This document shows, one piece after another, positions 1 through 29,682 of a stretch of 45,339 nucleotides of DNA (position 1 is the first letter of the stretch; every line of letters begins with the position of its first letter). Source of the DNA: a virus; IMG/VR virus record IMGVR_UViG_3300044699_000013, positions 1-45,339 of that record. One strand, written 5' to 3'. Below the pieces are notes generated by a model. It was not told the DNA's origin. It worked only from the letters and a program-made list of their open reading frames with translations, and ran no database searches. The translations under genes and the position numbers were made by a program.

Positions 1-283
1 CGTATACTGGCTATCGTTGTAACCGTCAATGAGGTAGCTGAGAAGAGTCTTTCTCTTCCTTTGCTCCGGTGAGAGTCATAAACTTCTTCTACCGTAGCCG
101 GAAGCGTAATCAGGCTGGCTAAGGTCAAAAGCCTCATATGAGATTGGGTAGGATTCTTACCGCGCGTTGCGCCTACCTTAACGCGCATCTTCCCTTACCA
201 TTACGACCCTTATTAGTTTCGGCCGCCGTGCTTCGAGCTTTTCGCGCGCAATCTCCAATGCAGACTTCTGGTCCTTCGCTCAT
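1..283 (-). CDS. hypothetical leftward gene, frameshifted, runs off window edge
   Basis: The reading starts at ATG 283 with GAGG eight bases upstream and lies just downstream of the leftward promoter at 359-387. Frame changes are needed at about 255 and 160; the clearest segment reads EKLEARRPKLIRVVMVRED, then, after a shift, GATRGKNPTQSHMRLLTLA. It is rich in Lys/Arg and I do not recognise a family. The last segment stays open to the window edge, so the gene probably continues at the other end of a circular map. Function unknown; the existence of a gene here rests on promoter, RBS and a long patchwork ORF. Confidence 0.45.
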
Positions 284-358
284 GGTGTAACCTCGCTAGA
301 TTGTCAAAGAGCCGATACCGGCCGTCGGCGTCATTGCCACTGAGCAGCCAGTAAAGAC

Positions 359-387
359 AGTCTACCACAAGTAGCCGTCTTTGTCAA
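359..387 (-). promoter_or_regulatory. leftward sigma70-type promoter P1
   Basis: On the minus strand a perfect -35 TTGACA (387-382) is separated by 17 bases from a -10-like TAGACT (364-359). It sits 76 bases before the ATG at 283. The spacer contains the polar hexamer ACGGCT on the minus strand. The -35 lies in a 16-base block that recurs exactly at 785-800. Confidence 0.75.
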
Positions 388-395
388 GCCCTAAT
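380..395. repeat. 16-bp direct repeat copy 1 (promoter upstream block)
   Basis: The + strand reads TTTGTCAAGCCCTAAT here and identically at 785-800. Each copy contains the -35 hexamer of a leftward promoter plus its upstream flank, so it may be a shared operator or an UP-like element. Confidence 0.8.
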
Positions 396-499
396 TTTGT
401 AACCAGGGCTTCACAACGGCGGCTAGCCGTTGAAAACTCCGCGCCTACTCGCTAGCGTAATAGTCTGCTTTAACCGTTCTGAGGATACGCTTAACCGTT

Positions 500-716
500 C
501 TATGGCTGGTCTGTCGCATTGCCCCCGAATGCTACCAGGACATTGATATACATCGGCATTCCCAAGTCATCTACCAGGGAACCATTAGCCGTTAGCTTAG
601 CCGGAGCGGCTAGCATTGAATACCGCGCGGGAATGGTGCCGCAGTACTGGCAATGAAATCTAGCGATATGGTTTAACGCCTAAGCAGATATCACAATCAT
701 AGCAAGTCTCAGTCAT
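500..716 (-). CDS. small zinc-ribbon protein, one frameshift
   Basis: ATG at 716 follows a strong GGAGG RBS and lies 48 bases downstream of the -10 of the promoter at 764-792. The N-terminus carries CYDCDIC; after a one-base shift at about 660 it continues RFHCQYCGTIPARYSMLAAP and runs to a TAG at 500-502, about 72 residues. The paired CxxC motifs predict a zinc ribbon, so a nucleic-acid or protein contact role is likely. It is the first gene of the leftward transcript, the usual place for early regulators or host-takeover proteins, but no specific function can be assigned. Confidence 0.6.
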
Positions 717-763
717 TGATAAATCCTCCGGCTATATCTCAATCAATCCTTATGCCTGAATAC

Positions 764-792
764 ATCCTAGCATATCCCAGGGTATTTGTCAA
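764..792 (-). promoter_or_regulatory. leftward sigma70-type promoter P2
   Basis: Minus-strand TTGACA (792-787), 17-base spacer, TAGGAT (769-764). It drives the zinc-ribbon gene whose ATG is at 716. Same -35 and upstream flank as the promoter at 359-387. Confidence 0.8.
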
Positions 793-800
793 GCCCTAAT
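785..800. repeat. 16-bp direct repeat copy 2 (promoter upstream block)
   Basis: Exact copy of the block at 380-395, again overlapping the -35 of a leftward promoter. Two exact copies at the same place relative to two promoters argues for function rather than chance. Confidence 0.8.
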
Positions 801-889
801 ATTAGCGTCTTATTATTACCAGAATTCTAGCTAGTATTCTGATTAAATCGAATTACCATAACTGCACACTGACAAGACATGCCACCCCT

Positions 890-901
890 GGGGTATACCC
901 C
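890..901. repeat. perfect 12-bp palindrome, candidate operator
   Basis: GGGGTATACCCC is its own reverse complement. It sits about 100 bases upstream of the leftward -35 at 787-792 and 200 bases upstream of the rightward promoter. A dimeric regulator site is possible; no binding data. Confidence 0.4.
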
Positions 902-1067
902 CTGCACAGAATAACATCCACACTGCTCGCCGGCGGGAGGTGTCTCACTTACTCTCAAAAGGTTCCCAATAAAAGGGTCCCATATAAAGGAATCATAATA
1001 ATAAAATAAAATATTATACTCGATGCTTTCAGGTTCTGAAACTTTCAGACGGGCGAGGCTCTATCTG

Positions 1068-1080
1068 CTTGACAGTCAAG
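1068..1080. repeat. 13-bp palindrome near rightward promoter
   Basis: CTTGACAGTCAAG has six-base arms around a central A. It ends 21 bases before the rightward -35 (1102), a common position for an operator. It also contains a spare TTGACA without a convincing -10. Confidence 0.4.
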
Positions 1081-1101
1081 AGGTTACGGGTTCGAGGGCG
1101 T

Positions 1102-1131
1102 TTGACAGGTGCTATTCGGTTATGCTATCAT
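1102..1131 (+). promoter_or_regulatory. rightward sigma70-type promoter for the late/structural module
   Basis: TTGACA at 1102-1107, 18-base spacer, TATCAT at 1126-1131. The first gene starts at 1170. It is the only convincing consensus promoter I could find facing the structural genes. Confidence 0.7.
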
Positions 1132-1169
1132 GCTCGGAGTCTCCGGGGTCCTATTAGGATTCATTAGAT

Positions 1170-1421
1170 ATGGATACACACATTAATACATCACAAGATA
1201 TCATAGACTTGTTGCGTAGGATGAAGGATGTTACGGCTAGCATCCGACATACTATGCAGTATAAAGTTCTACATGGTACAGAAGTAGCGAAGATATCTAG
1301 ACGGCTAGCGGAGATAGAAGGAGATTTAGAGCATATGAATGATAGGATCACAACGGAACTAATCAACAAGGAACTTGCAGATGCTAGTACCAAGCAAGGA
1401 AGCTCTAGGAAGATTGCATAG
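1170..1421 (+). CDS. hypothetical 83-aa protein
   Basis: First rightward gene, starting 39 bases after the -10. Mostly helical and charged, with a central region (EVAKISRRLAEIEGDLEHM) that looks like a short coiled coil. No cysteine or membrane segment. Intact frame. No family recognised. Confidence 0.6.
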   Translation: MDTHINTSQDIIDLLRRMKDVTASIRHTMQYKVLHGTEVAKISRRLAEIEGDLEHMNDRITTELINKELADASTKQGSSRKIA

Positions 1422-1435
1422 CGCCAGACAACTTA

Positions 1436-1800
1436 ATGAATCGTCTCTCTGCGAGACGAGATGCTATGGGTTTATTTGGCGTGGCTATGCAGCCTGCTAC
1501 ACAAACGGCTATAGCTGCTACTAATCCGGTACCATCTACAGCACTAGCAATACCAAACTTCAATCCATTCCCTAAGTCTTCATCTAATGTTCCTGCGGTA
1601 GAGCAGCCTATTGCTCCCAAGGATTCTGCTATTGATGAAGATGCCAATGGGCAACCCACTCTAGACAATTTAGTTAACAACGCTGGTGTGCAGATTAAGC
1701 TTGCTAATGCACATGATACAGCGTTGGTACTCTTGTTGATGCCATTAAAGAAGTTAAACTGCGTATCCCTGAAATTAAAGCTGATCGCTTGCCGGAGTAA
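1436..1800 (+). CDS. hypothetical, Pro/Ala/Asn-rich N-terminus, frameshifted C-terminus
   Basis: ATG at 1436, 15 bases after the previous stop. The first 90 residues are rich in Pro, Ala, Asn and Thr (NPVPSTALAIPNFNPFP), a low-complexity linker. A one-base shift near 1718 restores the tail GTLVDAIKEVKLRIPEIKAD before TAA at 1798. Position and composition would suit a small virion or scaffold-accessory protein, but nothing is diagnostic. Confidence 0.5.
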
Positions 1801-1817
1801 TCACAGCTACGAGTAAG

Positions 1818-1945
1818 TCGTAGAGCAGATTCAACGGCAAAGAATGGATGCGAATAAAGGTCGTGGAGATCAAACTGTCCATCTTCACTTCTATACTCCG
1901 ACGCAACGTAGGGCAGAAGAGTATGAAGTTATTGATGTGGGGTAG
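1818..1945 (+). CDS. short hypothetical ORF or tail of the preceding gene
   Basis: An open stretch reads VEQIQRQRMDANKGRGDQTV and ends with TAG at 1943-1945. No good start codon is visible, so it is either the frameshifted C-terminus of the preceding gene or an independent small gene whose start was lost. Confidence 0.35.
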
Positions 1946-1950
1946 CATCC

Positions 1951-2232
1951 ATGTTAGATCAGGAGTTCATTAAGTGGCTCCTAACTCTCGGAGTCGGCGG
2001 AGCAATTGCCGCATTAGTTATTACCTTCTACCGTAAAGACATTAAACAGTATACAGAACTTTGGCGTTCAACGGCTGAAATGCTGATGAAGGCTCTTAAC
2101 GAGAATACGGCTAGCAACGTAAAGCTTATATCATTGATTGAGTCTATGGAACGTAACCAGCTTCGTAAGGCTGATATTGAATTGTTAGTCGATCGAAGAA
2201 TGGGAAACGAAAGGAGAGACAGTGCCAACTGA
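1951..2232 (+). CDS. holin-like small membrane protein
   Basis: 93 residues. One hydrophobic segment near the N-terminus (residues ~9-27, WLLTLGVGGAIAALVITFY) is followed by a charged helical cytoplasmic tail (ADIELLVDRRMGNERRDSA). This is the shape of class III-like phage holins and related one-segment lysis proteins, which would let the endolysin at 20978 reach the cell wall. It is not next to the endolysin, so the holin role is inference; another inner-membrane early protein is possible. Overlaps the next gene by 11 bases. Confidence 0.5.
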   Translation: MLDQEFIKWLLTLGVGGAIAALVITFYRKDIKQYTELWRSTAEMLMKALNENTASNVKLISLIESMERNQLRKADIELLVDRRMGNERRDSAN

Positions 2233-2476
2233 AGTACTAACGATTGGACCAGTAGCTGCAATCACAGACAATACTATTAGAGCTTTACCGGCTCGTGCTG
2301 TTCGTTTATTTGTTACCTTCTCAACGGCTACTTCAGTGGATGTATCCAATGCTTCGGATATGTCTAACCCACAGAACTTGTTACCGGCTGCATTTGCTAC
2401 TGGTGGAGTTGACGTCGCTGCTCAATTCATTCGCGTGAATGGCGGCAACGCAACTGTCAGGTGTGCGGCTCGGTAG
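2222..2476 (+). CDS. small hypothetical beta-rich protein, GTG start
   Basis: 84 residues starting at GTG inside the end of the previous gene, with AGGAGAG upstream. Alternating hydrophobic and polar residues, Ala/Thr/Val rich, no cysteine pair apart from RCAAR near the end. Resembles the small single-domain virion proteins seen later in the window but no family is recognised. Confidence 0.5.
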   Translation: MPTEVLTIGPVAAITDNTIRALPARAVRLFVTFSTATSVDVSNASDMSNPQNLLPAAFATGGVDVAAQFIRVNGGNATVRCAAR

Positions 2477-2492
2477 ATAATAAGGAACTAAC

Positions 2493-2898
2493 ATGAAGCG
2501 ATACATTACACTCTCTGCCAATCTCCATCTTCTCGGAATCATTGCAGGGATAATTCCAATCAGTTCTCTATCAGCTCAGACTACCAATCCTACTTCACCT
2601 AGAGTATTACGATATCAGGATAACACACTAGCTTGGGATATTGACGCTCAGTCTCCATTTGAAGCATAGCTCGTTTAAGTACAAAGTATACTGGGCTAAC
2701 AACCAGGTCTATGAAGTAAATACTACTGTTAACTGTACTGGAGAAGTTAACCCTAGACATTGTACTACACCTGCACCAGAATTCGTTGTTGGTTCTAACG
2801 TCTTGCAGATGACGGCTAGTGCTAATACGAATGAGTCTCCTAAGTCTAATGTGTTGGAAGTATTCTACGCGGTGGCTCAGAAAGATAGTAATCATTAA
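2493..2898 (+). CDS. secreted beta-sandwich-like protein with signal peptide, frameshifted
   Basis: ATG at 2493 with AAGGA upstream. Residues 1-28 form a signal peptide: basic start MKR, hydrophobic core LHLLGIIAGIIPISSL, likely cleavage after SAQ. After DIDAQSPFE a one-base indel at ~2668 shifts to KYKVYWANNQVYEVNTTVNC. The pattern of aromatic and alternating residues suggests one fibronectin III/Ig-like domain; two cysteines (NC, HC) could form a disulphide. Export predicts a periplasmic or surface role in the infected cell, for example superinfection exclusion, but this is only inferred. Confidence 0.5.
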
Positions 2899-2939
2899 TA
2901 CGGAGAAGCAATCCGTACTGAGATGCCAGCCTGGGACTT

Positions 2940-3077
2940 ATGAGATTCAAAGAATCTCTGAGGCTTCTAAAACTTCTACCAGCGTTTAATACGACTACCA
3001 AGCACGTTGCTTACAGCTATGCAACGGCTACTGCTGTTTACATTATCACCTGTACTCTCTTGCAGAGCGGTACTTAA
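2940..3077 (+). CDS. 45-aa single-span membrane peptide
   Basis: Intact small ORF from ATG 2940 to TAA 3075. A basic N-terminus (MRFKESLRLLK) is followed by a hydrophobic stretch ATATAVYIITCTLL. Could be a lysis accessory or antiholin-type peptide given the holin-like gene nearby. The ATG of the next gene follows one base after the stop. Confidence 0.4.
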   Translation: MRFKESLRLLKLLPAFNTTTKHVAYSYATATAVYIITCTLLQSGT

Positions 3078-3078
3078 C

Positions 3079-3420
3079 ATGACTAAGAAGAACGAGCCAC
3101 AAAGCAATCAGCATTCAAGAGCTGCATATTCACATAGATAACAAGTTAGTAATCGATACAATCTTGGGAGTGGAGCACAGAATCAATCTCAGGTTAGACA
3201 GAATCGAGGAAAAGATCATGGCATTATCACCCGAAGTTCAGGCAATGAAGGATGCAGTTACGGCTGCACTCGACGATCTTGCTAATGACGTGAACACTCT
3301 GCTCGGTCGTGCGACCGGCTTGAGTGCAGAAGATAAGGAAGCTCTCACTGCTATTGCAGCGAAGGCTCAGGTACTGCTGGTATTTTTGATTGCACCGGCA
3401 GCGGCGACCGGTCTAAATAA
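3079..3420 (+). CDS. hypothetical coiled-coil protein, frameshifted
   Basis: ATG at 3079 gives MTKKNEPQSNQHSRA; a shift at ~3120 leads into VEHRINLRLDRIEEKIMALS and a helical region PEVQAMKDAVTAALDDLAND. A second shift near 3372 gives a short Gly/Ser tail ending TAA at 3418; without it the frame ends at 3475. Heptad-like spacing predicts a coiled coil. It precedes TerL, the position of a terminase small subunit, but no DNA-binding helix-turn-helix is visible, so I do not call it TerS. Confidence 0.45.
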
Positions 3421-3453
3421 GTTACCCTCCCAAGGCTTAGGTAATTCAACGAT

Positions 3454-5100
3454 ATGGATAGTTTGCAGGGCTTAACGCAGCGAGTCACTAGTGAAGGCAA
3501 CGGCTTATATCAAGATGTATTAAAGGATAAGAATATTAGAGGACATGAGAAACAGAACACGTCCTTCAACTTCCAGATGATATCTTCGAGGCTCTGTATG
3601 GCGGAGCGGCTTATGGTGGTAAATCCTGGCTACTCACTCTGCTGCCCCTATTCCGTGGCTTCTATAAATACCGAGGATTCAAAGGTATCATTCTTCGACG
3701 TAAGTTCCAGACCTGGAAAGAGAAAATTATCCGACTAAGTAAAAGAATACTATCCTCAGACAGGAGGTAAATACAATGAGCAGAAACATAGCTGGGAATG
3801 GCCCATGTATGCTCGTATATGGACTTCGGTCATATCCAACATAATACCGACGTTACTATGTACGACTCTGCCCAGTATAACTATTGCGGCTTTGACGAGC
3901 TTTACTCACTTCGATGCCTACCCGTATCATTATATGGTCGGTAGTCGTGTACGTCCTGGTGGAGACTTCCATATTGCTTTTGTTAGGAATGGAACCAATC
4001 CTGGAGGACCAGGACAGACGTTCGTCTACAATAGATTCGTTAAGCCACACGAAGACGGCTACAAGATTATCAGAGATAGAGCAACTGGATTACTTAGAAT
4101 CTTTCATCCAGCGTTAGCTGAGGATAATCCTTATGGCATGGAGTACGATCCACTCTATGTCAAGAAGCTAGAAATCCTTAGGGAGAGTAGCGAAGCAGAG
4201 TATAAGGCTAAGAGATATGGAGACTGGCACGCCTTTAAGGGCTCAGTATTTACCACCTTTAGGGCCATTCGATTCCCTGGTGAGCCGGATAACGCACTGC
4301 ATGTTATTTCACCATTTGAGATCCCTGAGTGGTGGCCCCGTTATTGTCAATTGACTGGGGCAAGACAGCAATGTGTTATGCTATGTGGGGAGCCATTGGA
4401 CCAGATAAACGCGTATACGTTTACAGAGAACGAGGCTGGCGTGGTAGAGTATTTCCCATTGGGCATCGGAGATTAGAGAAATCCATGACGAGTTAAACGA
4501 AACACCAACAGTGACTGTCCTTTGTGGAAGTGCATGGCAAAATCGAGGAGGCACTGAGATTCAGGAAGACTTCACTAAGTACTCAGGATTAGTTGCCATT
4601 TAGTTCTGAGAAATACTCCTGGATCACGAGTCGCTGGATTACAGACTGTTCACGATTTCCTCCGCTGGGAACAGAAGTCACGTCTGATGAGCAGAGAAGC
4701 TTATTATGACATGGCTAAGGCTCAGGAAATCTATCGTCGTTTCGGTCAGAGAGCTTTAGAAAGATATCGTTCTCAGTTTTAGATGAACCTGAAGAACAGA
4801 ATATTCCTATCCTACAACTATTTGAAGGTAGAACACCTATCCTCGTAGGACACTATTCCTATGGCTGTCTATGATGAGAAGAAGGTAGAAGACGTAGCTG
4901 ATTTGATGGTGATGAACCCAATTCGATTGCTTGCGATACTTCTGCAAGACGGCTCGCAGATTTATTGCTGGTGAGATTGGTAACATGGAACACCAGGTAA
5001 AAATTAGCCAGATTATCCAGACATATGAACAGTCAGGTGATATGAATAAGCTCTATCGTCAAATGGAAACTCTGAGCGTGGTAATAACATCATTAGGGCT
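3454..5100 (+). CDS. terminase large subunit, several frameshifts
   Basis: ATPase/nuclease motor that packages DNA through the portal. Visible in order: IRGHEKQ followed by LPDDIFEALYGGAAYGGKSW (Walker A GGAAYGGKS, ~3585-3645); GIILRRKFQTW; GHIQHNTDVTMYDSAQYNY and GFDEL (Walker B/coupling region, ~3820-3900); SRVRPGG; then a nuclease-type start IDWGKTAMCYAMWGA (~4350) with the first acidic residue, and the terminal LRYFCKTARRFIAGEIGNM. At least six indels split it. Length about 545 residues fits the family. The 3' end is uncertain (one frame runs to 5185). Followed closely by small membrane and basic proteins, then the portal. Confidence 0.9.
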
Positions 5101-5106
5101 TCCGGA

Positions 5107-5355
5107 ATGGGACGATTCGTCCTCGTGGTGTTTTGGCAAGACGACACGGAAGGAGACACTACTGACACTCATTGGGCTTTCATAGCAGTGCTCATCATCG
5201 GAGTTCTCTGGTGGTGTATTAGCACTCTGATTTCATTCGTTTGGTATCACTCAGCCAATCGCTGAGTCATCTATGTTCTATTCGTTCTTATCGCTCTACT
5301 CTATCTACTAGGTCAATTCGGTTATGGGCCTGGATCATCTTGGAGGCTATGGTGA
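5107..5355 (+). CDS. two-span small membrane protein, one frameshift
   Basis: ATG 5107 with AGGG upstream. First span WAFIAVLIIGVLWWCISTLI ends with a TGA at 5263, and the adjacent frame immediately gives a second span VIYVLFVLIALLYLLGQF ending TGA 5353. Either one gene with an indel or two overlapping peptides. Its stop overlaps the ATG of the next gene (translational coupling). A membrane role in lysis or in DNA ejection is possible. Confidence 0.45.
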
Positions 5356-5594
5356 ATTGGATTCAAAGATTATTCCTTACTCCAAAGGAACCTGAGAAGT
5401 GTCTCACCTGCGAGGCTTATAAGGAACAGTTAGACTATCAGCGTAAGATATATGATGACTTGCAAGATACGATGATCTCATTGCTTAAGCCTGTCCCCAT
5501 TATTCGTGAAGGTGTAGATCCTAATCCAAAGCCTATCAGCACTGCTGGTAAGTTGTGGAGTAGGAGGCGCCATGAATTAGAAAAAGGCGGATAG
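5349..5594 (+). CDS. hypothetical 81-aa protein with one CxxC
   Basis: ATG at 5349 overlaps the previous stop. Contains PEKCLTCEAYKEQLDYQRK, one CxxC and a charged helix, then a Pro-rich section and a basic end SRRRHELEKGG. The weak membrane-like start of the longer ORF (5241) belongs to the upstream gene frame. Not recognised. Confidence 0.5.
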   Translation: MVNWIQRLFLTPKEPEKCLTCEAYKEQLDYQRKIYDDLQDTMISLLKPVPIIREGVDPNPKPISTAGKLWSRRRHELEKGG

Positions 5595-5724
5595 AGCGAC
5601 AGCAAGACTTAAGGTGACATCACCGGTAATTGCTAAATCTGATGCAGAGATTAAGGCTGAACAAAAGCCTGAGGATAATCCTACTGTAACGCCTATGAAC
5701 GAAGTAAAGACATTGACCAACTAG
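5572..5724 (+). CDS. hypothetical charged 50-aa protein with early in-frame TAG
   Basis: A strong RBS (GGAGTAGGAGG) precedes ATG 5572, but the third codon is TAG; the frame then stays open as KKADRATARLKVTSPVIAKS to TAG 5722. The early stop is most likely a base error, because TAG is used as a normal terminator in many genes here. Lys/Glu-rich, no domain seen. Confidence 0.4.
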
Positions 5725-5763
5725 AACTTGAATTAGGCGTTGTTGAAAAAGAAGGAGTCACTA

Positions 5764-5988
5764 ATGCCAGCAGGTGTTGTTCAGGCTACAGTCACGGGAA
5801 ATACTGGTCCGGGTAATGCCGTGACCTCTCTTATTATTACTAACGTGCGCAGCATCAACTTCCGATTCGCTGATGGCGCCGTTGATATTTATTCTGTATA
5901 ACGTGGCCTGGTTCATTCAGACGTTCCAGTATTCAGCTATGACTACCGTTACTTTTACCCGGCTTCACGTACTGTTGTAATGAGCTAG
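5764..5988 (+). CDS. hypothetical small virion-type protein, frameshifted
   Basis: AAGGAG RBS and ATG 5764. MPAGVVQATVTGNTGPGNAV is followed by alternating beta-type residues; TAA at 5899 is probably an indel artefact because an adjacent frame continues RGLVHSDVPVFSYDYRYFYP to TAG 5986. About 74 residues. Gly/Thr/Val-rich beta character like the decoration-type proteins after the capsid gene. Confidence 0.4.
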
Positions 5989-5995
5989 TAGTTAC

Positions 5996-6139
5996 ATGCC
6001 AGCTAAATCTGGAAAACAATATCGCCTTATGGCAATGATTGCTCATGGCGTAAGCCTGGAATAGGGCCGAGTAAGGAAGTAGCTGAGAGTTTGTGAAAGA
6101 GACACCTAAGGACAAACGCAAGCTTTTCAGCAGCAATAA
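5996..6139 (+). CDS. small basic phage protein, DUF3008-like, frameshifted
   Basis: Begins MPAKSGKQYRLMAMIAHG and after shifts continues KPGIGPSKEVAESF and KETPKDKRKL. This matches the layout of short basic phage proteins (start MPxxSxKQxR, then PSxEVAxxF) commonly found between terminase and portal; their role is unknown. Ends just before the portal RBS. Confidence 0.5.
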
Positions 6140-6151
6140 AGGAAAACGCCG

Positions 6152-8530
6152 ATGGATTAACTGAACAGGATAAGATCAGTCTAAAGGCTGTAGTCGATCA
6201 TTTCGACGCAGAGGATCTTATTGTCCGTCAGCGACAGCTTCGTCATTATCGTAGGCTGAAAACTTTATTGGAATAACTTTAGCCAGATTTATTGGTCTGA
6301 GAGTGCTAGGGATTATCGTGTCTATGTGGCAGACGACTTCGCATATGATGGCAATGATTCAGGATTACTATGATCGACCTGTTAACATCTTGCGTGCGCT
6401 TCTTGAAACTATTATCGCTGCTCTTTCTATACAAGTGCCTGCTCCTAGCTGTGTACCTGATTGACGCTGATAATCCGGCTGACCTATCTACTGCTAAAGC
6501 TGGTGATAAGATCGGAGAGCTTCTCTATAAGCATAATGATGTAATCTTTCCTGTGGCTTCATGCCCTGTATGTTCACGTAACTGAAGGTATGGTTGCGTG
6601 CTATCAGTATAATAAAGAGAGTAATGATTATGGTACTTACAAGGAACGTCAGTATAAGATGAAGAGATTGAGGCATATGTCTGTCCTCACTGCGGTGAGA
6701 GACTTGAAGACGACTCTTCTCAAATGAGGTTGCCTTTAGGTAATGACCAGCCACAGCAAATGCCTGCTCCTCCTGACCTCCTGATATTCCAGGTTCGTTC
6801 GTAGAGGAAAATGGAATTCGGACCAGACGATGATGATATCGATTTACACTCGGTATTAGATGAGAAGGTCCAATCTGCCAGCTTGTCAGCAGTCTTTAGA
6901 TCCTGAGCTGGAAAAGACTAAGCTTGTCGTTCCTCGATTCGTCGGGATGAATGATAAGGCTAAGTCACGAGTGTGTTTTGATATTAAGGGTGGTCTGTAT
7001 GTCAATGACGGCTAACTAATGCTGTTACACAGGCTGACACTCCTTACCTTATTTACAGCTATGAGACTCACTACGCTAACGCTATGCATGAATATAAGAA
7101 CCTCCGCGAGGAGATTCCGCAGGGAGGTTGGAGTAATGCTGGCGTTAATGATCCTTATGAGCAGTATGCGAGATTAAATCCTCAGTATCGTAATGCATTT
7201 CCTGAAGAACAGGTAAACTATTAAGAAGGCTTGGCTTCGTCCGGCTGCTTTTGAAATCCTCGAAGAGAAAGAATGCGAGAGATGCAGAGGAAGTTCCCAG
7301 ATGGTGCTAGAGTTGATATGGTTAATACGATTGTTTGCTGTGCGGAGAATGAATCCCTGGACGATTGCTGGATCTCTCACGCGAGATCAATGCATGACTT
7401 CATTTAATCATGACCCGCTCGTGAGATGCTCACCAATATTCAGGATATTGTTAATGACTTAATCAGCTTAACACTGCAAACTATTGAACATGGTATTACT
7501 CAGACTTGGGCTGATCCAGCCGTTGTTAACTTTGAGGCGCAAGAGCAAATGGAAGCCGCTCCTGGTTATATCACCCCGACTAAGTTACAGGGTGGAGCTA
7601 GGAATATTAGTGAGGCTTTCTTCTCCACTAAGTCTGCTAGCTTATCTGCTGAAGTATTCCAGTTCTATCAGATCATTTGGCAATTAGGCCAGTTCACTTC
7701 TGCTGCAATGCCATCTATTTAATGGTGGTGCTCCGAGTGGTATTCTTCCCAGACTGCTTCTGAATACTCGATGTTCGTCAGGCATCACTTCAGAGACTAC
7801 AGTTAAAGTGGAAGAGTTTAATATCTTCTGGAAGAATATCTTTGGTAAGGCTATTCCTGCATACATGAAGCTGATTAAGGAAGACGAACGATTTGTTAAG
7901 AAAGATCCTAACGGTGGATTCGTTAATGTTATTATTCGTAGGGCTGAGATGGGTGGAAAGCTTGGTTCAGTTGAGATGGAAGGCAGCGAATCTATGCCTA
8001 TCTCAGATGAGCAGAAGGCTGACCTCATTATGAAACTTATGGAATTAAATAATGAAGAGGTGATGGCTGCATTAACCTCACCTGAGAATTTACCATTTGT
8101 TCGTAAGTTGTTAAGATGCCTGAGTTCAAGTTGCCTGGTGAGAACGATCGCAGAAGCAGCTTGAGGAAATTCAGATACTCACTCAGACTGACCTATTGTT
8201 ATTCCTCCTGATCCTCTGCAGATGCAGATGGCTATGAGTGCAGGACAAATGCCTCAGCCAACTGAAATGCCCTCTGTAGAAGTTGATCCTTTAGTAGATA
8301 ACCATGCTCTAGAAGCACAAAGTTTGCCGTGATTGGGCAGTGTCAGAGCTGGGAGACTTTGCAAGCAAGAGAATCCCAACGGGCTATAAGAATGTATTGT
8401 TACATATGAAGGCGCATATGGATATTCAAGCACAGCAGATGATGCAGCAGCAAATGGCTGCTCAGTCTGCTCAAGCTCGCCTGATAAGGGCAAAAATAAC
8501 CCTGCTAAGCTAAGCAGGATTCACAGATAA
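6152..8530 (+). CDS. portal protein, about 790 aa, many frameshifts
   Basis: Dodecameric head vertex channel for DNA packaging and ejection. ATG 6152 with AAAGGA upstream. Readable pieces across frames: LTEQDKISLKAVVDHFDAED; NNFSQIYWSESARDYRVYVA; a zinc-ribbon-like CPHCGERLEDD at ~6690; QFYQIIWQLGQF; VKKDPNGGFVNVIIRRAEMG; and a Met/Gln-rich tail ending DKGKNNPAKLSRIHR. Position after TerL and before the acidic scaffold, the size (similar to the long portals of P22-like podoviruses) and a Gln/Met-rich C-terminus support portal. The identification rests on gene order plus general character; no single diagnostic motif exists for portals. Confidence 0.7.
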
Positions 8531-8542
8531 GAGAGGAATCAG

Positions 8543-9892
8543 ATGCCGGGACTCTGTCCAATAATGGAACTGGTGACGATACCACCGTTAAGACCGGCGG
8601 AGAAGTTAAGGATAACAATAACGCCGATGATATTAATGCTTTTCTGTCGTCAGATGATGACGACGTTAGCCTGTATTAGACGATAAGGACGATGATAAAG
8701 ACGACGATAAGGAAGATAAAGAAGATAGCCTGCTCGTCGTAGTAAGACATACTGATAAAGATGATAAGGATGACGACGATAAAGAAGATGACGATGAAGA
8801 TGACATTAGCCTTAAAGGCGATGACGATGATGAGAAACTTGACTTAGATGAAGATGGAGAGAAGAAGACTAAGGCAGATGATGATTTTGAATTGATGCTC
8901 CGCCTAAGAAGCGTGAGATTCTAGCTAAGTATCCCAAGCTTTTCAAGGAGTTCCTCACCTTGAGAAGATGATGTATAGGGATAGGCAATATACAGAGTTA
9001 TTTGGTAGCTTCGATGATGCTAGGAAGCGGCTGAACAGGTTCAGGTTCTCAATCGCTTTGAAACTGATCTTGGCAGTGGAAACACTACGACTATCCTTAA
9101 GCAGATTAAAGAAGTAAATAAGGAAGCCTATGATAAGATTGTAGATAATTATATTGATGCTCTTGGTGAGTTCGATAAGGAAGCACAATCTGAAGTCCTG
9201 GGTAATGTCGGTAAGAACTTCATTGCCGCTATGGTCCGGGATGCTAAGAGATATGCTGAGAAGGGTAACAAGGAAACTCAGATACTTTAGGCAAGCTGCT
9301 CTTGTCCTGAATCAGTTCTTATTTCAGAGCGATGAGTGGACGGCTCCTAAGCCTAGAGTTCAGAAGAGTGAAGCTGAGGATGCTGTTAAGCAGGAACAAC
9401 AGCAGTACGTAAGGCAAGGTTTTACAGATGCTCAGAACGATCTGCAGGTAAGGTCGATAACATTCTGAGAGCTACTATTAATGAGTATATTGATCGTAAC
9501 GGAGAGATGTCTGCATTCGTCAAGAAGCACGCTGTATCGGGTGCATTGAAGTCTCTTCATAAGTCGATTGGTAGTGATACTAATTTCCGTAAGGCACTAG
9601 ATAGCTCGTGGGAAGCGTCGTACAATGATCGTTTCTCACGTGGTTCTCAGGACAGAATTAAGTCCGCATATCTTGGTAGGGCTAAACAGCTATTGAAGAC
9701 TGTCATTAAGAACGCACGAGCTGAAGCTCTAAAGGATACTTACACCTTCTCGTCGAGTTAATGAACGAGGATGAAGAAAAAGACACACGCCCTCGTAGGG
9801 CTATTACTTCTGGCCGTCCGCGCCAATCATCTAGCGGAAATAGTGGAAAAATGGAGAAGGGCGAGTCTGTACTCGACTTCTTATCCCGATAG
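8543..9892 (+). CDS. scaffold/assembly protein with very acidic N-terminus, frameshifted
   Basis: GAGAGGA RBS, ATG 8543. The first ~120 residues are Asp/Lys repeats (DDKDDDKDDDKEDKED and similar), then helical segments KYPKLFKEF, QYTELFGSFDDA, ILKQIKEVNKEAYDKIVDNY and DAKRYAEKGNKETQ, ending after a shift with RRAITSGRPRQSSSG and VLDFLSR. Acidic plus helical protein lying between portal and capsid gene is the standard position of the internal scaffold. About 445 residues. Indels at ~8675, 8890, 8960, 9290 and 9755. Confidence 0.75.
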
Positions 9893-9921
9893 TCTGCTTG
9901 ATTTGTGTGAGGACCTAAAAC

Positions 9922-11171
9922 ATGCCAGCAGTTGTTGAATCTCAGGTAGCAGGCACTGAGTTAGAGCGTGTGCTGCGAAAGTTCAGGTCGTTTACGAGAG
10001 TGACGACCATTTCTATTCTAATATTAAGAAGCGTGAAGTAGAGACTGTTTCTTATCGTGAAATGAGGGCGCCTCTTGAATTGCGTCCCGGTGGTCGTTTC
10101 AGTACTTCAATCCAGGTGGTGGTGATCTGGGTCGAGGTGGTGGTCCACTTGGGATAAGGCAGTTCTTCGCCCTGTATTTCATGAGTGAGATATTGAATAT
10201 ACTAAGTTAGCTCAGTGGAGCACCGATGACAAGCGTAAGGCTGTTATTATGCTGTGCGTGTCTTACGGCTGGCGCTATCGTTGAAATGCGCCGTCAGATT
10301 GATGCCAGCTTCAGCAGCCCGCACTGGTGTATCGGTTACTATTACTACTGCTACGCCTTCTGGCGGTGTTGATACGTATACTCTGACGACTGATGGTTTC
10401 GGCGCTCGCTTAATGCGCTTTGACCAGGTTGTTCAGGTATTCGATTCTACCTTAGCTACTTTCCGTGGTAAGGGTGTTATTACTCAGTGGGACGTTGAGA
10501 ATAAGACCATCCAGGTTACTCCGTCGATTACTGGTGCAACCACTGGTGATCTTCTGGTTACTGATGGTATTACCTCTCCGAAATCGCTGGCCTGCTTTAT
10601 ATGGTATTCCCTATCATCACTCGAATGCGTTCCACGGGAACGTGGCTTTGGATTCGACCGTTCTATTACTCCTGAAATTCGCGCTAACCGAGTGAATGCG
10701 GGTAACAATCCGCTTACGCTTCCGTTGCCGCGTCTTGCTATTAATAAGGTTGGAAACCGTGTAGGTATTGATAATAACTTTAAGATGACTGCTTGGACTC
10801 ATCCGGCTCAGCCAGGCTTATGAAGAGATTGGACAGTTGATGTCCCGTCATTCACAAGTCTGCTAAGGATGAAGCTCTTAATGCCTATTTCGGCGATAAT
10901 ATGCAGTTAGCTGGTGCGCCTATCCGCACTCATTTTAACTGGAATAGGACCCGTATTGACTTCGTCGTTGATAGTGTGCTGGGGTCGTGCAGAGATTCTG
11001 CCTATCGTTTCTATACGTCCGATGGTCGTCGAATCTTTGAACTCCGCGGACTAGGCGGCGTGTGGCTACGGCCGATATCTTCTATATGGTTGTTGGATTC
11101 CAGACATTTGTTCTTAATTCCTGCTGCTTGTGCATATTATCGATAACCTTGCAGTGCCATCGGGCTACTAA
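9922..11171 (+). CDS. major capsid protein, frameshifted
   Basis: ATG 9922 with GAGG upstream. Pieces: MPAVVESQVAGTELERVL; REVETVSYREMRAPLELRPG (~10040); VLTAGAIVEMRRQIDAS; a beta-rich central part TITTATPSGGVDTYTLTTDG; ITPEIRANRVNAGNNPLTL; GDNMQLAGAPIRTHFNWNRT; and the end DNLAVPSGY followed by TAA at 11169. About 415 residues, expected for an HK97-fold capsid protein, directly after the scaffold and before decoration-type proteins. Indels are frequent between 9990 and 10240 and after 10980. Confidence 0.75.
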
Positions 11172-11180
11172 GGAGGAATA

Positions 11181-11499
11181 ATGGCTGACGCTCGTAATTG
11201 GCAGAATTTCTCTACTGTCCAGAGCGGTGTGCAGGATAGCCGCCTGGAACATTGCCTCAGCGGCTACTATTACTCCTACTAACTTTCTTACCTTTGTTAC
11301 CGGCACTGTGCAGGTTGCTAATATTACGCCTCCTATGGATGGCGCTCATATGCTTTGCATGGTATTTACTAACGCTGCTCTGGTGCGTTCCTCACGACTG
11401 GTAATATTCAGCGTGCTGCTAGCGCCCTTCCAGAATATCCCGATTCTTCTTATCTACGATCATGTCGGTAAGAAGTTACTGGGAGCTTATCTACGCTAG
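11181..11499 (+). CDS. decoration-type virion protein A (paralogue of next)
   Basis: AAGGAGG RBS, ATG 11181. MADARNWQNFSTVQSGVQD, shift at ~11240, then IASAATITPTNFLTFVTGTV and NITPPMDG. The core pattern IASAAxIT...TGTxQVxNIxxP recurs in the next gene at 11565, so the two are tandem paralogues. Small Ala/Thr-rich beta proteins directly after the capsid gene are often head decoration or cement proteins; role inferred from position. Confidence 0.55.
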
Positions 11500-11564
11500 C
11501 TAATTGATATACAGGGGCCGCGCATCTTACACGCGGACATCTCAAAGGTGGAGGAGGAAAAGAG
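11500..11564 (+). other. short intergenic spacer with hairpin
   Basis: CCGCG (11518-11522) and CGCGG (11532-11536) form a 5-bp GC stem with a 9-base loop. There is no T-run after it, so it is not an obvious terminator; it could slow ribosomes or stabilise mRNA ends between the two decoration paralogues. A strong GGAGGAAAA RBS for the next gene follows. Confidence 0.3.
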
Positions 11565-11865
11565 ATGATTCCTGGCTATGGGTCAAGTAGGTTAATCGAA
11601 TCGGAAAATCGCATCGGCTGCGAGCATTACAGTAAAGGCCGACCTTATTCGACTTACAGGTACTACTCAGGTTGATAATATTCTTGGACCTCCGACTCTC
11701 AGGGTCGCGATGCCAATCTTATCTTTGTTTATACCACTGGTGCTGGTCTTACTATTTCAGCGGCTGGTAATGTGGCTGTTGCACAGGCTCTCGTTACTAA
11801 CCGTATTTACGCTTATATCTGGTCTTATCTTGCTAACAAGTGGCTTCCGCACGCTGTCGTGTTAA
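11565..11865 (+). CDS. decoration-type virion protein B (paralogue of previous)
   Basis: ATG 11565 after GGAGGAAAAG. N-terminus MIPGYGSSRLIESENR shifts at ~11605 to KIASAASITVKADLIRLTGT and DNILGPPDS, parallel to the gene before. It continues NLIFVYTTGAGLTISAAG. The end needs another shift to reach TAA 11863. About 100 residues. Paralogy suggests two related capsid-surface or vertex proteins. Confidence 0.5.
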
Positions 11866-11874
11866 GGAGAAACA

Positions 11875-12045
11875 ATGGCAACTGGTAGACTTCAAGGTCA
11901 GATTGCTGTTGGCGACGTCATTAAGATTGTTGGCGTCGTAACGGCTATTGCCGAAGGCACTCAGCCTACTGTAACTATTACTACTAAATATCCTAATTTT
12001 GCTGGTGCTAAAACCTCCATCACCGTCGACACATTCAACGGATAG
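11875..12045 (+). CDS. 56-aa hypothetical virion protein
   Basis: Intact: AAGGAGAAACA then ATG. MATGRLQGQIAVGDVIKIVG starts a Val/Ile/Thr-rich single beta domain. Possibly a third small head protein. No family recognised. Confidence 0.5.
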   Translation: MATGRLQGQIAVGDVIKIVGVVTAIAEGTQPTVTITTKYPNFAGAKTSITVDTFNG

Positions 12046-12051
12046 AGACGA

Positions 12052-12294
12052 ATGAGCAATCCATTTGGAGGGTAGTAACCCGTTCGCGGCTCTTTCTAAG
12101 CCATCATCTGAGGCTCCTGCTGCTGAGCACGATTACGGATACTGATCCTAATAAGGATAAAAGTTACTTTCAACGATAAGCAGAGCAGCCAGAGCTGCCA
12201 AATATTGGAACAAGTAGAGACTGATCCTATTCCTCTTCCTGATTTGCCTCCTCCTGAGCCGTTCGTTATCAGTGAGACACCATCAGAAGGGTGA
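12052..12294 (+). CDS. Pro-rich hypothetical protein, frameshifted
   Basis: Begins MSNPFGG, and after an indel reads NPFAALSKPSSEAPAAEHDY; ends PIPLPDLPPPEPFVISETP. Low-complexity Pro/Ser/Glu content predicts disorder. Stop TGA overlaps the GTG start of the next gene. Role unknown. Confidence 0.45.
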
Positions 12295-12378
12295 TTGATA
12301 TTTTAGCTGAATATAAGAAATGTAGAGTCGGACATTCCGCTCACCTCTGAATACTGGCGTCTCAAGCACCTCATCTAA
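12291..12378 (+). CDS. ~30-aa hypothetical peptide, one frameshift
   Basis: GTG 12291 overlaps the previous stop (GTGA). VIDILAEYKK, shift, NVESDIPLTSEYWRLKHLI, TAA 12376. Tight overlap supports translation; function unknown. Confidence 0.35.
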
Positions 12379-12387
12379 GGAGTCTCC

Positions 12388-12626
12388 GTGTCTGAGTTGC
12401 AAGAGTCTATTGAGGACATTATCGCAAACTGAAGGACGAATACGGGTATGGTCCTGATGGCATTAACCCTGAGTGGAGAGTTGTCTTAGCTGGCTCATTA
12501 CTAGAGAAGCGTTGGATGACTCACACGGATGAAGGATTTATTCTGTTGAATCCTGAAGTTCGTGAGGTGCCTAAATATCAGCATATTGATAAACATAAAT
12601 ATGTATTGAAGTCAGGTTTCCTGTAA
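12388..12626 (+). CDS. hypothetical 78-aa protein, GTG start
   Basis: AAGGAG RBS then GTG 12388. MSELQESIEDI, shift, KLKDEYGYGPDGINPEWRVV and GSLLEKRWMTHTDEGFILL to TAA 12624. The stop overlaps the next ATG (TAATG). Compact overlapping order fits head-tail connector accessory genes. Confidence 0.45.
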
Positions 12627-12959
12627 TGGGAGAGACTGACGTAACTACTAAGACAAGTTATGAGCCAGCTTGGACATTTGAGGATAGGCATGGTACTTAT
12701 TTACCTCCTCAGTTCTGGGCTGCTAAGATTGTTATTGATAGGATTCATCATCAGATGGATAAGCATGGATGGTTTTAAGAAATATGATGACCCAGAAGCT
12801 ACTGAACAAGCTAGGCTTCAAAAGATCATTGACATGGAGAAAGTACTTTTCGGTAACGAGACTCCAGTTGGCGATGCATTAGCACATAAATACGCGCGTG
12901 TAGTGCCGGAAATGGACTCTCTGATACGACGGAGAAAAGCGAATGAGCAGCGGATTTGA
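12626..12959 (+). CDS. hypothetical protein in connector region, frameshifted
   Basis: Starts in the TAATG junction. MGETDVTTKTSYEPAWTFED leads to PPQFWAAKIVIDRIHHQMDK; shift at ~12775, then FKKYDDPEATEQARLQKIID. About 110 residues, helical. No domain recognised. Overlaps the next gene by 17 bases. Confidence 0.45.
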
Positions 12960-13645
12960 AGGACTCAGGCAAAGTAGGCGAATTTATTCAGCTAGAGGTT
13001 TGATTAGGACTGTCCGTAACCCAATGGACAAGGCTACTATTGTTAGCATCTATCCTAAAGATATTTATGATGTTTAAACATACTACACAGCCTAGCAAGT
13101 ACTTTATCAAGGGAGGAAGTGTTAAAGAGCCGTCGCTTACAGTAGTTGTCCTGCAAGTTGTGGAGAGACGTTGATATTGAGCAGCCATATGACTTGAGTA
13201 CCAGTAGCGGCTACTCAAGTTGCTCATGCTCTCATTACTGACTACTGTCAGGGATTTTCTTGCTTGCGATATGGAAGAGATCGCCCTGGGCTTTTCTTAC
13301 CCTGGCGAAATCACCCGCAAGGTTCTTATTACTGAATATTCTATCAAGCTAAAGGAAGCTGGAAGAGAGGCAGAAGAGTTGGTATCGTCTGCTTATGAGG
13401 CTTGCCGATTCTTATGGGCTCGTAGTAATGGTAATCCACTAGCTATTTGGGATGAAATGCTATGGCCGCTAGAGAATTAGGCCTCGATAATAGGCCCTGG
13501 CTTAAGCTGGATGTTCAAGTCGATATGGTCCGCTGCTTTGCTTGTGGAAGTCTTCGTAACCCTGAATTTCCGATTTGTGCAACCTGTAAGAACATAGACA
13601 TGACAACATCCGCGTGCAGGGGAAATCAAATTAGCGGCAGGATAA
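12943..13645 (+). CDS. connector-region protein with C-terminal zinc ribbon, frameshifted
   Basis: ATG 12943. MSSGFEGLRQSRRIYSARGL, KHTTQPSKYFIKGGSVKEPS, LWRDVDIEQPYDL, AHALITDYCQGFLACDMEEI, GFSYPGEITRKVLITEYSIK and, after a shift at ~13465, a zinc ribbon with CFACGS and CATCKN. Ends GEIKLAAG with TAA 13643. About 230 residues. A structural protein with a zinc ribbon in the connector region is unusual; it could be a tail adaptor or an assembly chaperone. Confidence 0.5.
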
Positions 13646-13646
13646 C

Positions 13647-14070
13647 ATGTCAACTTGGACAAGGCATACTATCAAGATCGGCAGCACTCCTGAATGATCA
13701 GGGACAGAGCGAACTACACTGATACGTTTTGCTGCCGTATCTGAATACAGCTTTATCCGAGTTGCAAGAGATATTTGAACTCAATAACATTCCGTCTACT
13801 AACGAAACTAGTGCAACAATCGCTGTCCCATCTGCTACTATCTGCTATAGGATTTACTACTGTTCCTGCACTACCTCTGATTTAGTTGAGATTCAGCAGT
13901 TGTGGGAATCTCAGACTGGTCAAGATAACTGGATGCCGGTTACTAAGAAAGAGTTCTTAACGGCTTCGATTCTTGGTACTGTTCAGTTAACTGTATTTGG
14001 TATCTGGGCTTGGATTGACCAGGAGATTCGAGTAAGAGCTGCTGTAACTCCTATCGATTTGGAAGCTTGA
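13647..14070 (+). CDS. tail/adaptor-region protein with in-frame TGA and frameshift
   Basis: ATG 13647 one base after the previous stop. MSTWTRHTIKIGSTPE meets TGA at 13695, then the same frame continues SGTERTTLIRFAAVSEYSFI; after a shift it reads IPSTNETSATIAVPSAT and VEIQQLWESQTGQDNWMPVT, ending TGA 14068. The TGA sits where Trp (TGG) would fit, so a base error is the simplest reading. Position before the nozzle-like gene suits a head-to-tail adaptor. Confidence 0.4.
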
Positions 14071-14315
14071 CTACATTAAGACATTATTCTTGAGCTAGCT
14101 CTATCAGGTTTAGGAATCAGAATACCATCATTAACACTGATACGTCTTTACATATAGAGTTGCTGCTCTAGCATCTGAGTTCATCGATGAGAACATCACA
14201 AGAGCCGACAAACAGAATAGTATGGCTGCTGGCTGCACTTGATCGTTCTCTTGGCATTAGCATTAAGGGTAAACAGAGTATTGCTGTTCGTCGCAGGCCG
14301 TTTAGAGCGGCTTGA
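14067..14315 (+). CDS. small hypothetical head-tail adaptor candidate, frameshifted
   Basis: Start unclear (TTG 14067 overlaps the previous stop). Readable: VAALASEFIDENITRADKQN, then SLGISIKGKQSIAVRRRPFR to TGA 14313. Helical first half followed by a basic tail. Small adaptor proteins have this length; no motif proves it. Confidence 0.35.
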
Positions 14316-14334
14316 AACGACGGAGGTCATTACT

Positions 14335-15842
14335 TTGAGAGATCATCAGCCAGTAGTTATTGACAACTTTAATGGCGTCTGGAGACGCGGTAATCCATAT
14401 GATGTTCCACTAGATCACTTAGATGAGGCTAACAATCTAGATCAATTTTGCACAGCACTGATGTCCAACTTCGTCCTGGAGTTGGAATTAAGCAAGATTT
14501 GCTGTTCCGCTAACTAATATTAAGAGGGTATACAACTATCTACAGCTACGTCTAACGGTATGATTGTTCTCACATATGATGGTACAACTGGTAAAGTCTA
14601 TCATGTTCAGGATGATGCAACTATATTTGGACCTATCCTCACTATTGCTGGCATGGAAGATATTGCTATGGTTCCATTTAACGGGAGAGCTTTAATTAGC
14701 CCATTTAAAACTTATCCTAATGCTCAGGGTATCAACTTTGAGAAGGAATGAATGGTCAATTCCTGTATGTTTATAACGGAGATGGAACTAATGCTCGTAA
14801 AGCTGGCGGGGCAGTTCCGGGTGGCTCAATAACAATCGCAAATGGAATTGCCGGGCATACAGATGCAGGGACACATGTATTTGGGGTTGTTGGAGAAACT
14901 GATTCCGGTTATCTTAGTGCTCCTACTGCTCTCAATAACTTCGTTACAGGTGCTAGTTTATCGGTCTCATTCTCGACTGTGCCGACTTTTGTTGGAGCAC
15001 AGTGGGTCAGAAGACATATTGTCGCATCTAAAGCTATTCCAACTTTTAACGGTGACAATACAGGATATACACTATACTTCATTCCTGGCGCTACTATCAA
15101 TGATAATGTCACTACTACTCTTAGTAACATTAGCTTTTACGATGCTGACCTCTTAGAGGATGCAAGCCATCTACTAGATAACTTCTCAGATATTCCTGCT
15201 GGTTCCTGCTTAGCTATATATCACAATAGACTTTGTTTAGCTGGTCAATTCGTTGATCCGCATCTTATTCGTGTGTCTGCAGCCGGTGAACCTGAAGCTA
15301 TTAATCAGATTAACGGCTTCCTTACTATGCCTGCTGATGGTAATCCAATAAATGCTATTGCTGAGCTGAGAGATGTCATTTACGGCTTTAAGAGGTCTAA
15401 GACGGCTAGTTGGGTAGATAACGATGGAGTGCCTACTTCATGGCCTTTTGTTGCTGTGGATGATGCTTTAGGCACTTCAGTTCACGGAATTGCCACACAT
15501 TTAGATTCTGGCTCGTCAGTTGCTGACTTCTTATATGTAGCCACCTATCGAGGATTATGCCTTTTTAATGGTAGATACGTAGCTCCAGAACTTAGTTGGA
15601 AGATTCAGGACGATTGGATTAACTTTGACCGTAACGAATTCAGGAAGATCCAAATCGTCGACAATCCCATTGAACAGGCCATTTTCATGGTTACACCAGA
15701 GAGAAACATACTAAAAGGCTACTACGGTAACGGTTTGACACCGAAAGATATCCAATGGTGGCCGTGGTCGTTTGATTTCAAAGTCAACACGATCGGAATC
15801 ATAAACATCAACGACTTCATCATTGGAGCTGACATAGTCTAA
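14335..15842 (+). CDS. tail nozzle/tubular-like beta-rich structural protein
   Basis: I chose TTG 14335 because GGAGG lies eight bases upstream and the protein opens with RDHQPVVIDNFNGVWRRG, a typical N-terminus for tail nozzle-type proteins. Indels at ~14465 and 14748; from there the frame is clean. Features: YDVPLDHLDEANNLDQF, MIVLTYDGTTGKVYHVQDD, FLYVYNGDGTNARKAGG, CLAIYHNRLCLAGQFVDPHL, FLYVATYRGLCLFNGRYV. Repeating beta blades suggest a propeller-like fold. About 500 residues. Probably forms the short tail tube end that carries the fibres. Confidence 0.55.
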
Positions 15843-15844
15843 TC

Positions 15845-16249
15845 ATGACTCTCATAGTTCCAAACGCTCGCGAAGTAGCTATAATGACGGAGTTTCTGAC
15901 TCCTAGTCTAACGCTAAAGCTTTATTCTAATGATGTTACGCCAGACGGAACTAAAGTAGCTGGCGATTTCACTGAGGTTTCTGGTGGTGGCTATACCAGT
16001 TTCCCACTTACGTTTGCTAATTGGACTATTGTTGGCGGTGCTCCTACTGTTTGTACTTATCCCATTCAAGGATGGGGATTTACAGGACCAACTAGTGCTC
16101 CCGGCACTATTTACGGCTATTTTATTACTAGGGTTTCTGATGGGGTTCTGATGTATGCTGAGCGTTTTCCTGGTGGAACAGTACCATTTACACCTGAGAA
16201 CGGCTCTATTATTCGTGTTACGCCCAAAATCACCTGTGAGAGTGCATAA
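15845..16249 (+). CDS. 134-aa virion structural protein
   Basis: Intact. Starts MTLIVPNAREVAIMTEFLTP, then a beta-rich Gly/Thr/Pro domain (LTLKLYSNDVTPDG, GTIYGYFITRVSDGVLMYAE). Similar short proteins often lie between nozzle and fibre genes in short-tailed phages. Overlaps the fibre ATG by one base (TAATG). Exact function unknown. Confidence 0.5.
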   Translation: MTLIVPNAREVAIMTEFLTPSLTLKLYSNDVTPDGTKVAGDFTEVSGGGYTSFPLTFANWTIVGGAPTVCTYPIQGWGFTGPTSAPGTIYGYFITRVSDGVLMYAERFPGGTVPFTPENGSIIRVTPKITCESA

Positions 16250-19200: not shown

Positions 19201-19262
19201 AGCCTGAAGTAGATGTTCCTATTCCTAACCCATACGGAAAGACAGGGTTTATAGGTGGCTAA
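16249..19262 (+). CDS. tail fibre/receptor-binding protein, about 1004 aa, one frameshift
   Basis: ATG 16249. The N-terminal ~150 residues (PNWPTEPPSNAVALYLFYNI, WYWVGILLCKQGG) probably attach to the tail. A jelly-roll LamG/concanavalin-like section follows (RFSTGFETQNGGQV, ERMYVKFQKFPTAASGF, LDTWYRIDSYVKF, EVCYDDWENIDPG), then further beta domains. One indel near 18050 splits it: PPLIQ continues in the other frame as GVSAGTYVGNGTFQTVTIQL and runs to TAA 19260. A sugar-binding adhesion role is inferred from the LamG-like pattern. Confidence 0.65.
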
Positions 19263-20328: not shown

Positions 20329-20337
20329 GGAGAAGAA

Positions 20338-20975: not shown

Positions 20976-20977
20976 AC

Positions 20978-28339: not shown

Positions 28340-28369
28340 CTGATTCTCTCCTATTCTGACGGCTATCCT

Positions 28370-29026: not shown

Positions 29027-29077
29027 GATAGAGAAGTTAACTCCTCTTGGTATATCGTCTAATTAATAGGTTCGTAT

Positions 29078-29649: not shown

Positions 29650-29682
29650 ATCTTTTGCAAGCACTCTATTTGAAGCGGCATG

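Follow-up and report, generated by a model that had tools for sequence, protein, structure and literature searches.

The window analysed here, a stretch of 45,339 bases that constitutes the whole of the IMG/VR record IMGVR_UViG_3300044699_000013 (classed as linear), carries the hexamer ACGGCT predominantly on its top strand, with a small group of reversed copies close to its left end. An initial annotation had proposed that this flip in polarity is what a replication origin or a packaging start would produce, and the question is whether the reversal marks such a site, and if so where it lies. The genes of the window form two arms, a rightward one between about 1.2 and 27 kb and a leftward one between 28 and 44 kb, and its GC skew tracks gene direction. 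Among its products are an SNF2-family helicase, a terminase homologue, a DUF3987 protein of the kind annotated as a primase, and a family-A DNA polymerase that carries a uracil-glycosylase domain; the first two served as anchors:

42826..44079, minus strand: SNF2-family helicase, used for orienting relatives
3739..4473, plus strand: frame with homology to the large terminase subunit in the relative G001, used as the right-hand anchor

Several genes of the window are split over frames and correspond to long single frames in relatives. Both the polymerase (34360-36998, minus strand) and a leftward CxxC gene (about 495-719, minus strand) are broken over several frames and have longer frames in relatives, which makes it probable that the contig contains indel errors. 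For the stretches poor in ORFs we also considered other genetic codes, under which frames lengthened on both strands when a stop was removed; as the same genes are long in relatives under the standard code, frameshifts in the contig are the simpler reading. In the polymerase, a uracil-DNA-glycosylase-like N-terminal domain is fused to the family-A polymerase domain (36237-36995, minus strand, in the window; 21192-23669 in G001).

There are 55 copies of ACGGCT in the window against 12.9 expected from dinucleotide shuffles, 46 of them on the top strand and nine on the bottom (373, 425, 587, 7518, 12257, 13128, 37915, 40755 and 41702). The top and bottom counts are 0 and 3 in positions 1-1000, 17 and 3 in 1000-15000, 10 and 0 in 15000-28000, and 19 and 3 in 28000-45339. 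The elements that define the pattern are:

1233..44627, plus strand: stretch with mostly top-strand ACGGCT (46 top, 6 bottom by count), spanning both gene arms
373..378, minus strand: reversed ACGGCT found by motif search within the leftward sigma-70-like promoter 387-359, in its spacer
425..430, minus strand: reversed ACGGCT found by motif search in the hairpin AACGGC-TAGCC-GCCGTT; a GCGGCT on the plus strand begins at 419
587..592, minus strand: reversed ACGGCT within a leftward coding frame, from motif search and frame homology

Thus all three copies in 1-650 are indeed reversed, as had been claimed, and one of them does sit in a promoter spacer. The accompanying claim that every other copy (about 46) points the opposite way fails on the six further reversed copies, and the first top-strand copy, which does come first after the switch, begins at 1233 rather than 1234. 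The polarity is independent of gene direction, unlike that of AAGGCT, which switches along with the genes. When synonymous codons were shuffled in the window alone, top-strand ACGGCT stood at 24 against 4.4 expected and bottom-strand ACGGCT at 2 against 2.5.

The strong strand bias of an asymmetric word recalls the evasion of a type III restriction enzyme by one-way sites, for which phage T7, with 36 EcoP15 sites in one orientation and escape from EcoP15, is the precedent (PMC3874151). Such evasion is highly improbable here, since the nine reversed copies create inverted pairs where evasion calls for none, and the word is enriched rather than avoided.

Given nine reversed copies among the 55, the probability that the first three are all reversed is 0.0035, and that of a run of three reversed copies anywhere is 0.15; the window by itself is therefore weak evidence, and the trio, judged on it alone, is suggestive only. 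Counted together with the sister word GCGGCT, positions 1-1232 hold two top-strand copies (GCGGCT at 419 and 606) and three bottom-strand ones, and the remainder of the window 72 and 12. The surroundings of the trio contain the following elements:

503..679, minus strand: leftward gene piece with CxxC, frame broken in the window; homologous frames lie at +1.05 to +1.24 kb from the module S1 described below
359..387, minus strand: leftward sigma-70-like promoter, sequence match TTGACA-17-TAGACT
764..792, minus strand: leftward sigma-70-like promoter, sequence match TTGACA-17-TAGGAT
1102..1131, plus strand: rightward sigma-70-like promoter, sequence match TTGACA-18-TATCAT
820-841 and 920-943, no strand: overlapping palindromes, from a palindrome search
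981..1020, no strand: AT-rich patch by composition, adjoining the rightward promoter and distinct from the iteron-flanked core described below
1036..1048, no strand: dyad CTGAAACTTTCAG, from a dyad search

The AT-rich patch, the two palindromes and the back-to-back promoters do lie between the reversed and the first top-strand copies, as the initial annotation had it. Promoter-like sites number six in positions 1-1500 against 2.2 (sd 1.7) in shuffles, and a scan of the same positions against Rfam gave no family at the gathering threshold. The -35 hexamers of the two leftward promoters fall within a 22-bp direct repeat (91%) at 377-398 and 782-803. The CxxC product, which we take to be zinc-ribbon-like, has matches in nine of 20 relatives (eight of these with S1), with a best E-value of 1.5e-15 and a longer frame in G014. 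The arrangement of an AT-rich stretch, the dyad and a TTGACA promoter recurs in five of the 20.

These contexts invite the reading that coding sequence, a hairpin and a promoter spacer each account locally and by accident for one copy of the trio, with no larger island involved. Two of the three do lie in a hairpin or a promoter, and GCGGCT occurs on the opposite strand in the same region. Against this stands the bottom bias of the homologous region across pooled relatives, in the light of which we consider accidents of this kind unlikely.

The relatives were found among viral contigs by helicase matches, and 20 records were taken whole. Of 24 records oriented by the helicase, two of which (G019 and G021) look like near-duplicates, 20 have the majority ACGGCT orientation of the window, three the opposite one and one is tied, some of the margins being small. 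With the window and the 20 relatives pooled, ACGGCT is, of all 4096 hexamers, the one most enriched on the top strand over the codon shuffle in both arms (226 against 50.4 in the plus arm, 148 against 31.2 in the minus arm), keeps this rank without the window, and is followed by GCGGCT and then by overlapping words. The bottom strand is enriched as well (94 against 28.1, and 70 against 19.8). Top-strand ACGGCT exceeds codon use at least 3-fold in 17 of the 20 relatives, and RCGGCT density is 0.9-3.7 per kb in 16 of the 17 genomes counted. RCGGCT, and ACGGCT foremost, is thus over-represented beyond both composition and codon use, as a Chi-like word would be. The clearly polar records are the window, G017, G018 and G019. 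Seven of the 20 relatives (G001, G003, G007, G010, G011, G016 and G024) have no top-strand excess by observed/expected ratio; in G024, no hexamer is more frequent than ACGGCT, with 134 copies, and a polarity that is clear by raw counts is gone by that ratio (7.0x top, 7.1x bottom). A second polar word family, CTNCT, occurs alongside ACGGCT.

One explanation of a polar word that ignores gene direction is that RCGGCT is a primase start site on the lagging-strand template, the top-strand polarity reflecting a fork that moves mainly rightward and the reversed island a short segment replicated leftward. The presence of CTNCT as a second polar family would fit, as would the fact that these phages encode a family-A polymerase together with the primase-annotated DUF3987 protein. 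The strength of the motif is, however, not tied to that protein, which in G002 is 67% identical over the aligned part (295 residues) although the motif is absent; G002 lacks it even though its helicase is among the closest. By reasoning, moreover, a bidirectional origin at S1 predicts opposite strands on each side, and reversed sites to the right of S1 would not prime a rightward leading strand. We therefore regard priming as quite unlikely to be what the word serves.

In most relatives the interval between the helicase and the terminase contains a module, S1, in which two arrays of 10-bp iterons, inverted relative to each other, flank an AT-rich core (TATATATAATAATATATATAAAAATATATA-like). In 17 of the 20 records this core is found upstream of the SNF2 helicase match, at a distance of 2.1-4.9 kb; it was placed by an ATATATA rule, except in G024, where it was set by hand, and G010 and G015 were dropped as the rule fell elsewhere. 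The arrays are centred near -190 and +190, with lag-10 identity of 0.48 near -220 and 0.55 near +160 against about 0.27 outside. Within 17 genomes the left iteron consensus agrees with the reverse complement of the right one at 7.06/10, compared with 5.20/10 between genomes and 4.94/10 in direct orientation. The iteron sequence accordingly differs from genome to genome and the inverted arrangement is kept (L083-L130, L171). A layout scan blind to the hexamer places S1 above the shuffle maximum of 0.40 in 16 of the 20 relatives, G004 and G014 barely passing at 0.42 (with one shuffle per record), and also in the new locus L171. G008, G015 and G024 fall under the threshold, G010 scores 0.42 at another place, and the best score among 50 distant loci is 0.40. 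S1 thus combines an AT-rich core and phased iterons with proximity to replication genes; the lambda O iterons are a familiar example of an iteron-type replication origin, and S1 is a probable candidate for one.

Around S1 the polarity of the word changes. In 18 relatives RCGGCT counts are 75 top and 29 bottom in the 3 kb to the left, and 21 and 50 in the 3 kb to the right (p 4e-8, shared ancestry ignored), these 18 including G008, which ends at S1, and G002, in which copies are absent nearby. In the first 500 bp to the right there are no top-strand and nine bottom-strand copies; parity is regained at 3-4 kb and a top-strand excess past 4 kb. The bottom majority on the right remains whichever genome is left out. 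The initial annotation had suggested looking at the same region in relatives, and a reversal is found there, at S1, although a bottom majority on its right holds in only eight of the 18 genomes individually (three opposed, four ties, three without copies); on the left, 14 of 18 have a top majority, with one opposed, two ties and one without copies. Among loci outside this set, seven were tried as an extra test, and the two that were new and had S1 in place were L171 (6 top and 1 bottom on the left, 3 and 3 on the right) and L008 (2 and 0, then 0 and 3), together 8 and 1 on the left and 3 and 6 on the right. The other five were left uncounted: L016, L020 and L026, in which S1 is not in place, and L029 and L172, apparent near-copies of G019 and G017, with 2 and 0 on the left and 0 and 1 on the right, and 1 and 0 followed by 1 and 1, respectively. 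A switch defined by gene divergence alone was blurred (47 top and 48 bottom from -4 to +2 kb, 8 and 16 from 0 to 1.5 kb, without the window), and the AT/iteron module gave a sharper one.

Could strand composition, combined with variable gene content between helicase and terminase, produce the reversal, the enrichment being a host-like oligonucleotide usage with no polar function? Pyrimidine-rich words flip at S1 too: by flip score, GCGGCT ranks 31st and ACGGCT 68th of 3626 words. The relatives without a top-strand excess and the 0.15 chance of the run in the window point the same way. The reversal is nonetheless seen separately within ORFs of either strand. In minus-strand ORFs only, the counts are 64 and 19 to the left against 5 and 12 to the right (p 3e-4, shared ancestry ignored); in plus-strand ORFs they are 10 and 23 within 3 kb and 130 and 82 at 3-12 kb. 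Intergenic copies number 8 and 9 on the left, where they lack a top bias, and 6 and 15 on the right. As the at least 3-fold top-strand enrichment also survives codon shuffling in most relatives, we hold composition to be a possible but rather unlikely explanation. In records over 40 kb the island counts are 13 top and 20 bottom, and a more bottom-biased 3-kb stretch (21 and 33) lies about 19 kb to the left of S1. Taken by itself, an association of the motif reversal with S1 appears somewhat more probable than its absence.

Where, then, is S1 relative to the window? The layout scan of the window, which is blind to its outermost 260-290 bases, gave a score of 0, its top strand contains no ATATATA, and no AT-rich core with phased iterons was found in positions 1-1234. 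Homology of the 503-679 frame in eight genomes would put S1 about 0.4-0.6 kb off the left end of the window. With the first 200 bases, which gave weaker matches, S1 comes to lie at 0.5-0.7 kb in most relatives and at up to 1.3 kb in G016, G020 and G024, and three weak matches of frames from the right end of the window fall to the left of S1. With the ends of the window joined, its helicase and terminase anchor are 5.0 kb apart; the interval measures 6.6-11.9 kb in 15 of 16 relatives, five of the relatives' intervals crossing contig ends; the other, G010, has 4.1 kb and is possibly incomplete as well. From the homologous frames and this short interval we infer that S1 most likely falls into an assembly gap to the left of the window, some 0.5 kb (0.4-1.3) away from position 1. 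The proposed origin within 1-1234 thus appears to be right as to its neighborhood, for an origin-like module seems to be close by and the polarity of the motif changes at it in relatives, and wrong as to its place, the module being outside these positions.

On this placement the trio at 373-592 probably belongs to the reversed island. The switch between 587 and 1233 would then probably be the far edge of the island at a divergent promoter upstream of the terminase gene rather than an origin, and the AT-rich patch, dyad and promoters at 0.98-1.13 kb are probably a divergent control region on the far side of the island. Packaging may also begin close to this edge, which the terminase gene follows at a distance of no more than a few kb.

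We propose that RCGGCT is a short polar signal under selection across this clade of phages and serves as a Chi-like word of a host helicase-nuclease of the RecBCD or AddAB type, oriented by late rightward replication, with the island guarding the origin end, and put the probability of this reading at roughly 0.4. At known Chi sites the enzyme recognises the word when coming from its 3' side, and AddAB enzymes have counterparts of the RecBCD Chi signals. Top-strand copies would accordingly rescue right-facing double-strand ends of a rightward late fork, in rolling-circle or concatemeric replication. Where a rolling-circle tail begins at the origin, its left-facing free end would be shielded by the bottom-strand copies immediately to the right. 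The island, extending some 3 kb rightward from S1, tends to carry the reversed word, and top-strand polarity would return near 1 kb of the window. A single Chi rule would account for the top-strand and the bottom-strand copies alike, though not for the bottom-biased stretch near -19 kb. The relatives encode Sak4-like and exonuclease proteins, so that a need for host recombination is not obvious. The composite proposition, that in this clade of phages a polar hexamer runs one way, reverses for 3 kb at an unusual origin of inverted, helically phased iterons up to the packaging region, marks origin, late fork direction and packaging start, and is the Chi of the host, is doubtful as a whole.

A near-identity search of a phage collection with 14.7-26.9 kb of the window and a tblastn search of it with a 626-aa protein gave no match, and a helicase search returned 691 records, each below 60% identity. 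The collection therefore yielded neither a close isolated relative nor a host. A scan of cellular contigs gave L131 alone, in a Pacearchaeota MAG in which it is perhaps misbinned; we did not use it as host evidence, and ACGGCT is not enriched in that MAG (173 against 497 for a control word). The window has a tRNA-Leu (taa) at 30575-30660 on the minus strand with weak full-length matches, at best 78.2% in Sinorhizobium records and 80.5% in Rhizobium phage Pasto. Matches this weak are not decisive. Different G+C-rich words are over-represented in other lineages, some of them without polarity, such as GCGCTG in G027 and the palindromic GCGCGC in L046. In L028/G027, GCGCTG is over-represented on both strands (21 and 22 in 32 kb, control word 0). 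In the distant relatives L046, L049 and L039, GCGCGC and CGCGCG are strongly over-represented beyond codon use (in L046, 41 against about 2 and 49 against about 3).

Should the island prove real, a single short word could, by its orientation, locate origins and give the direction of late replication or packaging in phages known only from metagenomes, and matching it to bacterial Chi-like motifs could help in identifying hosts. The S1 layout, with changing iterons in a constant inverted arrangement, offers a clear target for finding the initiator.

Neither this motif nor the S1 layout was found in the literature searched, which covered phage Chi, primases, iteron origins and type III sites in part. 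Known iteron origins, such as those of lambda O and of the RepA_N satellite PLE of ICP1, are similar to S1 in having repeats in the replication region; S1 differs in that its AT core has an array of 10-bp period on either side, at about -190 and +190, the two being inverted to each other, and further in its genome-specific iteron and in its probable position outside the window. ICP1 has been read as passing from theta to rolling-circle replication near its pac site, with a link between origin and pac proposed (PMC7145576). The EcoP15I sites of T7 are likewise an asymmetric word whose orientation along the genome of the phage is strongly biased (PMC3874151); all of them are one-way, whereas here nine of 55 copies are reversed and the word is enriched. 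There is also a likeness in form to the Chi sites of lambdoid, P1-like and T5-like phages, a short, asymmetric, G/C-rich word that is over-represented and distributed in a particular way from the origin to the packaging region, Chi being concentrated in lambdoid phages between the origin and the packaging site (PMC3784561). In the phages considered here the word is a different one, it is dense, its orientation reverses at an origin-like module, and its role as a Chi is one that we infer.
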